Source: Salsipaludibacter albus
Lineage (GTDB): Bacteria > Actinomycetota > Nitriliruptoria > Nitriliruptorales > Nitriliruptoraceae
Length of the DNA: 64,000 nucleotides
Direction of reading: 5' to 3'
Assembly: GCF_019798055.1 (NCBI RefSeq)
Contig: NZ_JAHOPH010000013.1
Coordinates: 1-64,000, forward strand
The position numbers were made by a program, and so were the translations under genes. The notes below the pieces were generated by a model. It had not been told where the DNA came from, searched no databases, and saw only the letters and a list, made by a program, of their open reading frames with translations. Positions 36,623 through 63,766 of this stretch are shown piece after piece (within the stretch, counting starts at the first letter, position 1; each line of letters begins with the position of its first letter).

Positions 36623-37318
36623 TCACCCGGCGTTCACGGCACCCCCGATGCCCAGCACCAGGTTGAGGACCACGAGGGCCCCGAACACCCCGACCACGGC
36701 CATCAGGATCATGGTCCATCGTGGCATCGGACGACCCGTCGTCGCCGCCCGGTACGCGACTCCCGCCAGTGGCAGGCCCAGGAAGGTCACGCCGTGGAGG
36801 ACCCCCATGGCGAGCAGGAGCCCGCCGACCCGTTCCAGGCCCTGGTCCAGCTGTGCCGCCCACGTCGCCGTCACCGGCACGGTCGGCGCGAAGGACGTGC
36901 TCATCAGGGTGATCCCCACGAAGACGAGGTTCCATGCCAGGTCGAGCAGCGGCGCGAGCCGGGACGCTGCCTCGACCGAGCCTCCCAGGCAGGCCGCGAG
37001 GAAGTCGCTGCCGACACGGTCCAACAGTGGCCGGATCCCCACGACCAGCCCGAGCATGACGAGCGTCTCGACGACCTCGAGCAGGCGCCAGTCCAGGAAC
37101 CACCCGAGCGGTCCCCGTTGGAGCGCGACCAGGCCGATCGCCACGGCCGCGACGACCACGATCGCGAGGATCCGCCGACGGCGGCGTCGGCGAACGACGT
37201 CGGCGGAGATGGCGGCGCGCACCCGGTCGAGCAGGTCGTCCGACGGCCGGGTGTCCAGGTCCGCCATGACGCCACGCACCCGGTCGTCGACCCGCAACGG
37301 CCGCTCGTCAGGCTCCAT
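36623..37318 (-). CDS. Five-helix membrane protein, candidate anti-sigma factor
   Basis: A 231-aa protein. Residues 1-48 are cytoplasmic and charged, ending in a run of seven arginines, and lack the HxxxCxxC zinc motif of ZAS anti-sigma factors. Hydrophobic segments lie at ~49-66, 79-96, 125-143, 163-187 and 201-226. Residues 96-189 are homologous to the small membrane protein at 38431-38874: both share DxAxxLVF and GGLLxxMGVLHG...LxLPxxG. The start overlaps the end of the ECF sigma gene by 11 nt, the usual arrangement of a sigma and its regulator. The anti-sigma role is inference. Confidence 0.72.
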   Translation of the reverse strand: MEPDERPLRVDDRVRGVMADLDTRPSDDLLDRVRAAISADVVRRRRRRRILAIVVVAAVAIGLVALQRGPLGWFLDWRLLEVVETLVMLGLVVGIRPLLDRVGSDFLAACLGGSVEAASRLAPLLDLAWNLVFVGITLMSTSFAPTVPVTATWAAQLDQGLERVGGLLLAMGVLHGVTFLGLPLAGVAYRAATTGRPMPRWTMILMAVVGVFGALVVLNLVLGIGGAVNAG

Positions 37319-37859
37319 CGCGGGTGCCTTCCAGTCGTTGTTCGAGCGTGGCCATCGCACGGCGGACGTGGGTCTTGACGGTGTTGGGCGAGATCCCGAG
37401 CGTGGCGGCGATCTCCCGCTCGGACAGACCCAGGTGGTAGCGCAGCACCAGGCAGTCCCGCTGGCGTCGGGGCAGGGCCTGCAGGGCCATGACCACCAGC
37501 GACGACTCCCGCTGGCTGGCCAGGCGCTCCACCACGCCGGTGTCGAGTGCCTCGGGGGCCGGGTCGGGTGGCTGGGTGGCGTGGTGGCGACGCGACATCA
37601 GGCCCCGGCGATTGTGGTCCCGACACAGGTTCAGCAGGATCGATCGGAGGTAGGCCGCCGCCGCGTCCGGATCACGGATCCGTCGCCGGGTCCGGTGGAA
37701 GCGGATGAATGCCTCCTGGACGAGGTCCTCGGCGGCGTTGCGGTCCTCGGTGAACAACCGGGCCAGCCGGACCAGGGAGGTTCCCTCGCTCCGGAACAAC
37801 TCCTCGACCCGGGGGACGGACGCGTGGGTCGCGGAGGCCGACGATCCGGCCTCCGCCAC
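37308..37859 (-). CDS. ECF-type RNA polymerase sigma factor
   Basis: A 183-aa sigma-70-family factor. Region 2 includes LVRLARLFTEDRNAAEDLVQ followed by EAFIRFHRTRRRIRDPDAAA (core binding and -10 recognition), and region 4 is ALPRRQRDCLVLRYHLGLSE with the HTH EIAATLGISPNTVKTHVRRA. The start is uncertain: GTG 37859 is favoured because homology begins at VEELFRSEGTSLVRL; a GTG at 37880 is possible. It is followed, with an 11-nt overlap, by the candidate anti-sigma gene and preceded, 31 bp away, by the SOD-like gene. Confidence 0.88.
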   Translation of the reverse strand: MAEAGSSASATHASVPRVEELFRSEGTSLVRLARLFTEDRNAAEDLVQEAFIRFHRTRRRIRDPDAAAAYLRSILLNLCRDHNRRGLMSRRHHATQPPDPAPEALDTGVVERLASQRESSLVVMALQALPRRQRDCLVLRYHLGLSEREIAATLGISPNTVKTHVRRAMATLEQRLEGTRDGA

Positions 37860-37890
37860 CCCGGCGCCCCCGCCCCGCACGCCGGCCCAG

Positions 37891-38385
37891 TCAGGACAGG
37901 TCGAGGCACGCCAGCCGAACGGCCGGGTTGTCGGGCCAATGGATGACCACCGCCCGTGCGTCGGCTCGTGCGACGTGGTCATGGACCGCCTGGCCCATGC
38001 CCACCCCGGCCGCGTTGGTCGTGATCGTGGGCCAGATCTCGTTGATCGCGTCGACCGCGCCACCCACCTCGTGCTGGTAGTGGCCCCCGCCGGGCGGGGT
38101 GCTGTCACACCCCGCGGCGTGGACGTGGACGCCGTACGTCGCGTCCGGCTCGAGGCCGGACACGTGCACCCGGACACGGGTCGTTGCGGTCGCCGGGCTG
38201 CGCACCATCGTGGCATGGCCGACGATGTCGTAGCCCAGGTCGCCGCCGCCGGCGAGCGTGGTGAAGGTGCCGCGGGTGACGGTCGCGGCCTGGTCGGCGG
38301 ACACGGCGGTCGTGGGGACGAGCAGGGCGAGCAGCAGCAGTGCCGCGCCGAGCAGTCGGATGGTCGGTCGGGTCGTTGACGTCAT
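37891..38385 (-). CDS. Secreted Cu-only superoxide dismutase-like protein
   Basis: A 164-aa protein with a cleavable signal peptide (RLLGAALLLLALLVPTTAVSA). The mature part has the Cu/Zn-SOD family marks YGVHVHAAGC (two copper ligands), GGHYQHEVGG (copper-bridge His), a TTNAAGVG turn and the strand AVVIHWPDN...ACLDL (last copper ligand). The zinc-site His-His-Asp loop is shortened and absent. This resembles actinobacterial secreted SOD-family proteins and Cu-only SODs. Arg of the active-site gate is not evident. In the sigma/anti-sigma cluster, where it may be a target or reporter of envelope oxidative stress. Confidence 0.78.
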   Translation of the reverse strand: MTSTTRPTIRLLGAALLLLALLVPTTAVSADQAATVTRGTFTTLAGGGDLGYDIVGHATMVRSPATATTRVRVHVSGLEPDATYGVHVHAAGCDSTPPGGGHYQHEVGGAVDAINEIWPTITTNAAGVGMGQAVHDHVARADARAVVIHWPDNPAVRLACLDLS

Positions 38386-38430
38386 GGACTTCTCCGTTCG
38401 GTGTCACCGGGCCCTGGGGGCCGATGACGA

Positions 38431-38874
38431 TCAGGCGTCGGCCGACCCCGGACGGGGTCGGTGCGGGAGGTCGAAGTCGGACCCCTGCGTGGGGGGCTGG
38501 TCGAGGCTCGCCGTGCGACCCATGCCCAGCAGCCTCCCGACCACCGGCAGCGACAGCACGTTGAAGCCGTGCAGCACCCCCATCAGGACCAGCAGTCCAC
38601 CGATCCGCAACGTCGTGGCCTGGAGCTGTGCCCCACCCACCGTGGCGCTCCACAGGGGATCCTTGGTGAACTGCACGACGAACATCACGTACGCGCCGAA
38701 CACCAGGTAGTAGGCGAAGTCCATCAGCACCAGGTAGCTCGTGCCGGTTCGCGGGTTCTGTCGGAACACGTCCCCCGCATAGGCCCGACCGAACCGCTTG
38801 ATGAGCGGCCCCAGGACCACGATGATCGCCACCAGCACCACGGCCGTGACCAGTTCCAGCTGCCACCAGGCCAT
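38431..38874 (-). CDS. Three-helix membrane protein homologous to the candidate anti-sigma factor
   Basis: A 147-aa protein with hydrophobic segments at ~5-23, 48-67 and 88-113 and a soluble, Pro/Asp-rich C-terminus (SLDQPPTQGSDFDLPHRPRP). Residues 22-113 align without large gaps to residues 96-186 of the protein at 36623-37318. The best-kept blocks are DFAYYLVFGAYV and GGLLVLMGVLHGFNVLSLPV. No named family was recognised. It is the first gene of a four-gene minus-strand cluster (45 bp before the SOD-like gene). Confidence 0.7.
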   Translation of the reverse strand: MAWWQLELVTAVVLVAIIVVLGPLIKRFGRAYAGDVFRQNPRTGTSYLVLMDFAYYLVFGAYVMFVVQFTKDPLWSATVGGAQLQATTLRIGGLLVLMGVLHGFNVLSLPVVGRLLGMGRTASLDQPPTQGSDFDLPHRPRPGSADA

Positions 38875-39113
38875 CGCCACTCCCTCCGTCCGGATCCCTG
38901 CCTCCACCCAGACAGACGATCGAGTCCGCCCGACGGGTGACATGACGGTCGGGATCCCGACGCCGACGCGCGCTCCCCGACCGCCCCCTCCCCCGCGGAC
39001 GACCACGAGTCGTGCGCACCGTCCCCGTTCGGCACCGTCAGGCGACCATCGCCCGCTGAGCCACCCACGTCAACCGCGACGGACGACGGCGGTCGTCGAG
39101 ATCCTGCGACGGA

Positions 39114-39126: not shown

Positions 39127-40458
39127 ATGGACACCCTCCGGCTCTGGGCCACCCATCGGCTCCAGCAACTGCGCTCGTCGCTGTGGGTGATCCCGGCGTT
39201 CGGGGTGGCGCTCGGGCTGGCAGCCGCGCTGCTGCTGGCCCCACTGGGCGACACCGGGGCGTGGCTGCTGCCGCTGTTCGTGGGGTCCGCGGACAGCGCC
39301 CGCAGCGTCCTGTCGGTGATCGCGGGGTCGACCATGACCGTCACGTCACTGACGTTCTCCCTGACGGTGGTGGCCCTGCAGGTCGCGTCCGGACAGTTCA
39401 CGCCACGCCTCATGCGCTCGTTCCTGGCCGACCGGGGCAACAAGGTCGTGCTGGCGATCTTCCTCGGCACGTTCACGCTGTCGCTGGTGCTCCTGCAGGC
39501 GGTCCAGGGCGAGACCGACCGGTTCGCCCTGTCGGTGCCGACGCTGGGCGTCAGCGTGGCGATCATCGCCGCCCTGGCCTCGATCATCGCGCTGGTCTAC
39601 TTCATCCACCACCTCACCCAGCAACTGCGCATCGACCGGGTCATGGCACGGGTCGGCGACCAGACGGTGGCCGCGATCGAGGCGACCTTCCGCCCCGCGC
39701 GGCTCGACGACGACGTCGACGAGGTCGAGCTCCCGGACGACGTCACGGTGGTCCCGGCTCCTCGCACCGGCCACCTGGACGACTTCGACGCCGACGCGAT
39801 GCTGGACGCGGCCGCCGACGCCGGCCTGTCGGTCCGCCTCCGTCCCGTGGTGGGTGCCTTCGTGACCGGCGACACCACCCTGGCCTGGGCCTGGCGGCCC
39901 GACGGTGGCACCGTCGACGTCGACGAGGCCCGGCGCGTGGTGGTCGAGCACGTCGTGCTGGCGACCGATCGGAGCCTCGGCCACGACCCGTCGTTCGGCA
40001 TCCGCCAGCTGGTCGACATCGGGACGCGAGCACTGTCTCCCGGCGTGAACGACCCGACCACGGCGGTCCAGGCGATCCAGCACCTCACCAGGATCCTGCG
40101 CACCATGGCGGGCCACGACCTGGGCACGCTCGTGCGTGCACGCGACGACGTCACCGTGATGATCCCTCGTCCCAACTTCGCCGACCACCTCGCCATGGCG
40201 GTCAACCAGCTGCTCCACTACGGCCGCCACGACGCCGAGGTGCTCCGGGCGCTGGCGCAGCTCGTCCGCGACGTCGCGGAGGGCGTGACGGGACCGACCC
40301 GACACGAGGCCCTGGCCACGCAGTTGGGGCGCATCGCACGAACCGTGGGCGACGCCGACATGGACGACGTCGAGCGCGCACCGGTCGACGACGCGATCCA
40401 GGTGGCCCGGGACGTGCTGGGAGGGCAGGACGCCGGCGCGGACCCACACGCCAGCTGA
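39127..40458 (+). CDS. DUF2254 predicted membrane protein
   Basis: A 443-aa protein matching the DUF2254 family. Four transmembrane segments occupy the first ~165 residues, including VIAGSTMTVTSLTFSLTVVA followed by LQVASGQFTPRLMRSFLAD, the most conserved stretch of the family. A large soluble C-terminal domain follows, with SPGVNDPTTAVQAIQHLTRI. Function is unknown. The gene probably starts leaderless from TAGCGT 7 nt upstream and is divergent from the sigma-factor cluster (252 bp apart). Confidence 0.88.
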   Translation: MDTLRLWATHRLQQLRSSLWVIPAFGVALGLAAALLLAPLGDTGAWLLPLFVGSADSARSVLSVIAGSTMTVTSLTFSLTVVALQVASGQFTPRLMRSFLADRGNKVVLAIFLGTFTLSLVLLQAVQGETDRFALSVPTLGVSVAIIAALASIIALVYFIHHLTQQLRIDRVMARVGDQTVAAIEATFRPARLDDDVDEVELPDDVTVVPAPRTGHLDDFDADAMLDAAADAGLSVRLRPVVGAFVTGDTTLAWAWRPDGGTVDVDEARRVVVEHVVLATDRSLGHDPSFGIRQLVDIGTRALSPGVNDPTTAVQAIQHLTRILRTMAGHDLGTLVRARDDVTVMIPRPNFADHLAMAVNQLLHYGRHDAEVLRALAQLVRDVAEGVTGPTRHEALATQLGRIARTVGDADMDDVERAPVDDAIQVARDVLGGQDAGADPHAS

Positions 40459-62905: not shown

Positions 62906-63766
62906 ATGGACCCGTCCCCGTCGCCCCGTGTCGGATCGCCCGCCGAGCTGCTCGACCCGGCGGTCGCCCGGGTGGTCCGTCGTGCCGCCGGGGTGGCCAA
63001 CCGTGCCGTCGACGACCTGCGGTCGGACCTGCTGGCCGGGGCTGGCACCAGCCGGCGCCACGTCAAGCGCGACGGCAGCCCGGTGACCGACGCCGACCGG
63101 GCCGTCGACCGCGCCCTGGTCACCGCCTTCACCGACGCCTTCCCCGACCACGGCGTCCTGTCCGAAGAGGGCGACACCACCTGGCACGGCGCCGAGTGGA
63201 CCTGGGTGGTCGACCCGATCGACGGCACGTCGAACTACGCCGCCGGACTGCCGTGGTGGTGCGTGTCGGTCGGGCTGGCGCACCACGGCGAGGTGGTGTG
63301 GGGCATGGTGGACGCCCCCGAGCTGGGACGTCGCTGGGAGGCCACCCGGGGTGGCGCGACCACTCGCGACGGCCGGCTGGTCCACGTGGCCGAGCCCGTC
63401 GACGTGTCTCGTCGGGTCGCTGCCAACCATCCCGTCGCCGTCACGCAGGGCACCATCCGTCGACGCCGCCGAGGCACCTTCTACAAGGCACGCGTCATGG
63501 GCTCGGCAGCGCTCGAGCTCGCGATGGTCGCCGACGGCACGCTCCTGGCCGCCTACCAGCGGGTGCCCAAGGCGTGGGACGTCGCCGCCGGTGGCCTGCT
63601 GGTCACCGAGGCGGGTGGCGCGGTCGTGTGCCCCGACCAGCCGAGCCACTTCCCCCTGCAGCCCGGCGTCGACGTCGCCGGCCAGGGCGTGGTGACGGCC
63701 GCGGGTCCCGACCGGGCCTGGGTCCAGGACTTCGTCGAGCGGCTGTGGCCGGACGACGAGTCCTGA
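62906..63766 (+). CDS. Inositol monophosphatase family protein
   Basis: A 286-aa lithium-sensitive-type phosphatase. Metal motifs are VLSEEGD (Glu) and WVVDPIDGTSNYAAGLPWW (DPIDGT), with PKAWDVAAGGLLVTEAGG (WDVAAG) near the C-terminus. The family includes inositol-1-phosphatase and histidinol-phosphatase of actinobacteria; which substrate applies here is open. The start at MDPSPSPRVGS is supported by a -10-like TACGGT 7 nt upstream (leaderless). Confidence 0.9.
   Translation: MDPSPSPRVGSPAELLDPAVARVVRRAAGVANRAVDDLRSDLLAGAGTSRRHVKRDGSPVTDADRAVDRALVTAFTDAFPDHGVLSEEGDTTWHGAEWTWVVDPIDGTSNYAAGLPWWCVSVGLAHHGEVVWGMVDAPELGRRWEATRGGATTRDGRLVHVAEPVDVSRRVAANHPVAVTQGTIRRRRRGTFYKARVMGSAALELAMVADGTLLAAYQRVPKAWDVAAGGLLVTEAGGAVVCPDQPSHFPLQPGVDVAGQGVVTAAGPDRAWVQDFVERLWPDDES

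Follow-up and report, generated by a model that had tools for sequence, protein, structure and literature searches.

The locus and its features

The 64,000-nucleotide stretch of DNA analysed here (the window) belongs to a 4.2 Mb genome and carries four compact genes on its minus strand. They lie in the transcriptional order modA (a working name), SOD-like gene, ECF sigma factor gene, and five-helix protein gene. An earlier note, made from the sequence alone, had described this arrangement together with an 11-nt overlap between the sigma factor and five-helix genes, and the coordinates bear out both (the overlap spans 37308-37318). The features discussed below are as follows:

38913-38941, minus strand: predicted sigma promoter, GTCACCC-N16-CGTCTG, 38 nt upstream of modA (exact match in the genome, conserved before most cassettes)
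38431-38874, minus strand: modA, three-helix membrane protein, 147 aa, stand-alone copy of the module
37891-38385, minus strand: secreted copper-only-SOD-like protein, 164 aa, with signal peptide
37308-37859, minus strand: ECF sigma factor of the SigE family, 183 aa, GTG start assumed (Sigma70_r2, r4_2, TIGR02983)
36623-37318, minus strand: five-helix membrane protein, 231 aa, probable anti-sigma factor (from its position in 36 genomes and a predicted model)
37175-37318, minus strand: codons 1-48 of the five-helix gene, probable cytosolic sigma-binding segment (from sequence, alignment, and predicted helices)
36755-37090, minus strand: codons 77-188 of the five-helix gene, shared three-helix module (from ModA alignment, profile match, and column conservation)

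The sigma factor narrowly passes the TIGR02983 (SigE family) cut-off, with 143.3 bits versus 141.55. It contains Sigma70_r2 and r4_2 regions only and ends about 10 residues past region 4. Membership of ECF41, which the promoter described below had suggested, was rejected on the absence of the fused C-terminal regulatory (SnoaL-like) domain. A DUF2254 membrane protein gene (window positions 39127-40458) is divergent to the cassette, and a similar gene occupies the same place in G001 (L050:12466-13269). The earlier note did not recognise the cluster as a described system; a search of the open-access literature likewise yielded no description of it as a system.

A three-helix module shared by ModA and the five-helix protein

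Residues 3-113 of ModA align to residues 77-186 of the five-helix protein with 37/111 identities (33%; 56.6 bits, E = 4e-15). This alignment spans the whole membrane part of ModA and is longer than the match that the earlier note had proposed (22-113 and 96-186). Profiles of the two families align at E = 1e-35 across 118 columns, and a ModA search retrieves five-helix genes in relatives and vice versa. The resemblance between the two membrane proteins, which the earlier note had allowed might be due to chance, is thus far above it. No Pfam or NCBIfam model covers the module, and a PDB sequence search was also empty.

More distant three-helix relatives exist, and the module fold is thus part of a wider family. 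Some form tandem pairs in family f4 (profile-profile E = 1.2e-6). Others, which match the anti-sigma profile at E = 1e-13 to 1e-15, adjoin genes for DCC-type thiol-disulfide oxidoreductases; their genomes measure 6 to 11 Mb, and we presume them to be Streptomyces. Stand-alone distant relatives followed by a DCC1-like thiol-disulfide oxidoreductase gene were seen at L193, L194, L196, L198, and L061:6446-7323, and overlapping tandem genes that place two three-helix paralogues side by side at L113:6915-7762, L114:9262-10115, L115:9641-10488, L060:6204-7036, and L187:5722-6503. A scan of genome contigs with the single ModA sequence recovered one near relative only, in a Nitriliruptorales metagenome assembly, and no relatives were found on plasmids.

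Distribution of the cassette

We searched the first 41 genomes (the window's own included), the phylum, the class of G237, and the class of G144; genes were called on the fetched stretches by a simple script, and their starts are approximate. Both modA and the five-helix gene were present in 11 of the first 41 genomes, and the cassette was found in 36 genomes in total. It takes the form modA-sigma-anti-sigma in 23 of these (split across two contigs in G014). The 13 others, a third class included, have a two-gene form that is the simplest seen: a sigma factor and a module-bearing anti-sigma factor without ModA.

The exact four-gene order with the SOD-like gene occurs in seven genomes from two actinobacterial classes: G000 and G001, from the window's genus, and G664, G641, G494, G503, and G539, from another class. 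The gene order on which the earlier note had staked its reading is thus kept in relatives, including those of a different class. Module and sigma factor occur together in 36/36 genomes; the SOD-like gene, the third element of the co-occurrence envisaged by that note, is a recurrent and not a constant partner (11/36). In four two-gene genomes of one genus, it is divergent and adjoins the sigma gene. Elsewhere, its place is taken by other genes behind the same promoter, which encode small secreted or membrane proteins. The first 41 relatives had pointed to a SOD-like gene restricted to the genus of the window, a view that the search of the second class overturned.

A common promoter motif and a small set of likely targets

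The upstream regions share the motif TGTCACCC-N16/17-CGTCTGT. In its strict form, the promoter has 56 matches in 513 kb of cassette neighbourhoods versus 0 in a reversed control, and it precedes the first cassette gene in 25 of the 36 loci. It is missing directly upstream of the remaining 11 cassettes, three of which have it before a preceding c9 gene. Across 12 whole genomes, the motif occurs 28 times, versus 2 for a control pattern, and about two thirds of these occurrences are at or beside the cassette. The cassette promoter is one of only two exact matches in the genome of the window. G000 and G001 each contain one second exact match, both upstream of a c7 membrane protein gene on another contig (L230:1718-2416 in G000:C56, site at 63684; L222:503-1183 in G001:C67, site at 1363). 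Members of the c7 family carry the motif PEFSWSGT, lack a Pfam model, and are encoded by the divergent neighbour of the cassette in G664, G016, G566, G144, G799, and a four-genome genus. The motif also precedes divergent SOD-like genes, genes of the membrane families c5, c7, and c9, genes for small secreted histidine-containing proteins (c3), and some ABC-transporter genes. Because motif, sigma gene, and targets travel together, we infer by co-occurrence that this is the promoter of the cassette sigma factor.

Inspection of the neighbourhoods led to several further observations. The promoter spacer is 16 nt before modA-first cassettes (17/17) and 17 nt before sigma-first cassettes (6/7). The c3 proteins are about 90 aa long, start with HxHxxxTPxG, have no Pfam model, and are encoded beside cassettes without a SOD-like gene in nine genomes, some behind the same promoter (L051:6293-6574, L052:8132-8404, L053:7219-7512, L056:9264-9542, and L174:8744-9034, among others). 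Plastocyanin-type cupredoxin genes lie near two cassettes (L053:6803-7165 and L058:14220-14489), with promoter-like sites upstream. At L165, L169, L171, and L172, two-gene cassettes have a gene for the secreted protein c10 nearby; three of these four loci also have an ABC transporter pair (c4, c14), and a promoter-like site is present at two ABC genes.

The SOD-like protein and the nature of the signal

Among the Foldseek matches listed for the predicted SOD-like model (pLDDT 89.5), all are Cu/Zn SODs (best E = 6e-6), and the best solved match to the SOD-like profile is the Cu-only SOD5 of Candida (E = 4e-4). Both results agree with the label that the earlier note had given this protein. Pfam, NCBIfam, and PDB sequence searches with the window protein alone returned no match; a close relative passes the Pfam Sod_Cu cut-off. 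An alignment of 13 members keeps the HxH pair, the third and fourth copper-type histidines, and the cysteine pair (H87, H89, H102, H149, and C93/C160, aligned with SOD5); R157 is conserved as well. No zinc-loop histidines are conserved in these 13 sequences. The electrostatic loop appears to be absent, since only 7 residues lie between H149 and R157 in the window protein. The Cu-only E110/D113 signature is at most half matched, with E116 invariant and D113 lacking an assigned counterpart. By fold and copper ligands, the protein looks like a putative bacterial copper-only SOD. Related SOD-like domains are also embedded in very long open frames (1,700-2,500 codons) of the same genome and of relatives, as at L250 (G000:C25:3290-3703), L256 (G000:C11:18214-18564), and L258 (G000:C12:209462-209866), one of which seems to be continued by a ThuA-like stretch.

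The SOD-like protein and some neighbours hint at a redox or copper theme, which is the weakest step in our reading. There is a substantial chance, somewhat short of even, that the unit answers general envelope or membrane stress and that the SOD-like protein is an accessory product that says nothing about the signal. The absence of an adjoining SOD-like gene from 25/36 cassettes would fit such a role, as would the other targets, namely uncharacterized membrane proteins and some ABC transporters. The SOD-like gene nevertheless lies within the operon in two classes and, in one more genus, is transcribed divergently behind a motif of its own, and a cupredoxin is added at some loci, all of which would be less expected of a product unrelated to the signal.

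Probable duplication and one-sided divergence of the module

We compared module histories in a tree that combined 57 modules with seven distant relatives. The anti-sigma modules with a ModA partner all group together (support 81/100) on long branches, whereas ModA and the two-gene anti-sigma modules lie near each other on shorter ones; the long branches make the root and the exact order uncertain. In every one of 231 genome pairs, conservation is higher for ModA (mean identity 0.66) than for the partnered anti-sigma module (0.42). Two-gene anti-sigma factors keep the same residue in 43 of 58 ModA-conserved columns, and partnered ones in only 17. The partnered copies retain a polar core, which in the numbering of ModA and the anti-sigma factor consists of E7/E81, D52/D126, R90/R163, and H102/H175; the residues lost from them belong chiefly to the inner, positively charged loop motif RFGRxYAxDVFRxNPRTGKS, together with the N of HxxN. 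A single duplication would explain these sequences most simply, with ModA remaining under the earlier constraints and the anti-sigma copy drifting away from them.

Since ModA kept the motifs and its partnered anti-sigma copy lost most of them, conserved sensing is more likely to reside in ModA or in the pair. The combination of a conserved stand-alone copy and a fast-diverging anti-sigma copy further suggests a two-protein anti-sigma complex. Loop charges also bear on how the module is oriented. ModA loop 1 has a mean of 5.8 K+R vs 1.0 D+E, and loop 2 has 0.6 vs 3.7, and on this basis loop 1 is placed inside. With its additional helix at the start, the anti-sigma factor would then have a cytosolic N-terminus and a module in unchanged orientation.

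ModA could instead be an output of the system: an envelope protein with its own function (e.g. lipid, quinone, or metal binding) that is made upon sigma release and feeds back only by consuming a ligand that the anti-sigma factor, having borrowed the same fold, also senses. We give this account roughly one chance in four. It would explain why modA is the first gene behind a sigma-type promoter, like other targets, and why ModA evolves the more slowly of the two copies, as a functional enzyme or binding protein would; the distant relatives that stand alone beside DCC-type redox genes fit it as well. It sits less easily with the finding that every modA identified occurs in a cassette with an anti-sigma gene. 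The two-gene anti-sigma factors, moreover, themselves carry ModA-type motifs, which therefore presumably serve signalling there.

The five-helix protein as a probable anti-sigma factor

The predicted model of the five-helix protein, of fair quality (pLDDT 84.9), contains helices at residues 29-64, 77-110, 115-140, 153-194, and 200-222, each of membrane-spanning length. Foldseek returned only chance helix matches to this model and no solved counterpart. A short, charged N-terminal segment precedes the first membrane helix, with predicted helices at 10-22 and from 29 onward. The HxxxCxxC zinc-binding motif is absent from this region in 28 aligned five-helix proteins; many class I anti-sigma factors also lack it (PMC7406223), and its absence alone is compatible with class I. 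Gene position and topology both fit what is generally expected of membrane anti-sigma factors. Because of the invariant gene pairing, directly downstream of the sigma gene in all 36 genomes, and this architecture, we assign the five-helix protein a probable anti-sigma role.

The earlier note had proposed that a putative anti-sigma factor senses through the same module as its neighbour. The shared module stands and the anti-sigma reading is supported by the 36/36 adjacency and the charged N-terminus; conserved sensing by the anti-sigma copy itself is less likely, this copy having lost most motifs where ModA is present. It is very unlikely that the five-helix protein is another target or transporter-like protein, with the sigma factor controlled otherwise: Pfam and NCBIfam anti-sigma domain models give it no confident match and its N-terminal segment is merely about 48 residues long, but sigma-binding segments of fewer than 50 residues are known in class II anti-sigma factors (PMC7406223), and it is the sole partner always found directly behind the sigma gene, where modA and the SOD-like gene come and go.

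A model for the signalling unit

Taken together, these genes probably constitute an autoregulated ECF sigma/membrane anti-sigma unit in which the sensory module has been duplicated into a paralogous partner, ModA, and which controls a small envelope regulon. The five-helix protein would tether the sigma factor to the membrane by means of its short cytosolic N-terminal segment; the extra first helix would put this segment on the cytosolic side and leave the module oriented as in ModA, with its start and its acidic loop outside and its positively charged loop and its end inside. ModA would be a second copy of the module that lacks the sigma-binding segment. Because of paralogy, co-conservation, and one-sided motif loss, we consider it most likely that ModA associates with the anti-sigma factor in the membrane, serving as a second subunit or co-sensor in the way that YhdK serves YhdL. 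A signal acting on the paired modules would release the sigma factor, which would then read the shared promoters and raise expression of its own operon and of a small envelope regulon that includes the secreted copper-only-SOD-like protein and the c7 membrane protein family.

A more specific version is improbable but worth stating. ModA and the anti-sigma factor could form an intramembrane heterodimer in which E7/E81, D52/D126, R90/R163, and H102/H175 make up one ligand site, perhaps for heme or copper, that reads extracytoplasmic redox state and drives a bacterial copper-only SOD regulon. If true, such a heterodimer with a shared ligand site would represent a new class of anti-sigma sensor.

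These observations provide a testable set of parts (promoter, regulon, and paralogous pair) for a membrane signalling unit that occurs in at least three actinobacterial classes and whose module has no database family. They offer a clear example of a putative sensor domain that was copied out of its anti-sigma factor, and point to a regulated bacterial protein that resembles copper-only SODs reported from fungi and animals.

Comparison with known systems

A close parallel in organization is the autoregulated sigma-M operon of B. subtilis, in which YhdL and YhdK form a two-protein membrane anti-sigma complex; one membrane protein binds the sigma factor and the other is needed for full inhibition (PMC6827917). 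Both systems combine an ECF sigma operon (autoregulation being proposed here) with two membrane proteins. The second protein of the present system differs in being a paralogue of the anti-sigma factor's own module and in being encoded first in the operon.

The promoter is close to that of ECF41 (TGTCACA-N16-CGTC; PMC3426412), and in both cases the targets are few and mostly neighbours. The present sigma factor, unlike ECF41, lacks a carboxymuconolactone decarboxylase or similar partner and any fused C-terminal regulatory domain, and has a membrane anti-sigma factor instead.

The SOD-like protein shares with fungal SOD5 and animal CSRP its secretion, a SOD fold, copper histidines with a cysteine pair, and, as it appears, the lack of both conserved zinc ligands and an electrostatic loop; it differs in being bacterial and about 16 kDa with a signal peptide. 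According to a 2026 review, the distribution of open-site Cu-only SODs is limited to fungi and oomycetes (PMC13017621).

Finally, the three-helix partners of DCC-type oxidoreductases resemble the module in helix layout, a GRxFLxDVF-like loop, the HxxN motif, and significant profile matches. Those proteins stand alone, and no sigma/anti-sigma pair adjoins them.
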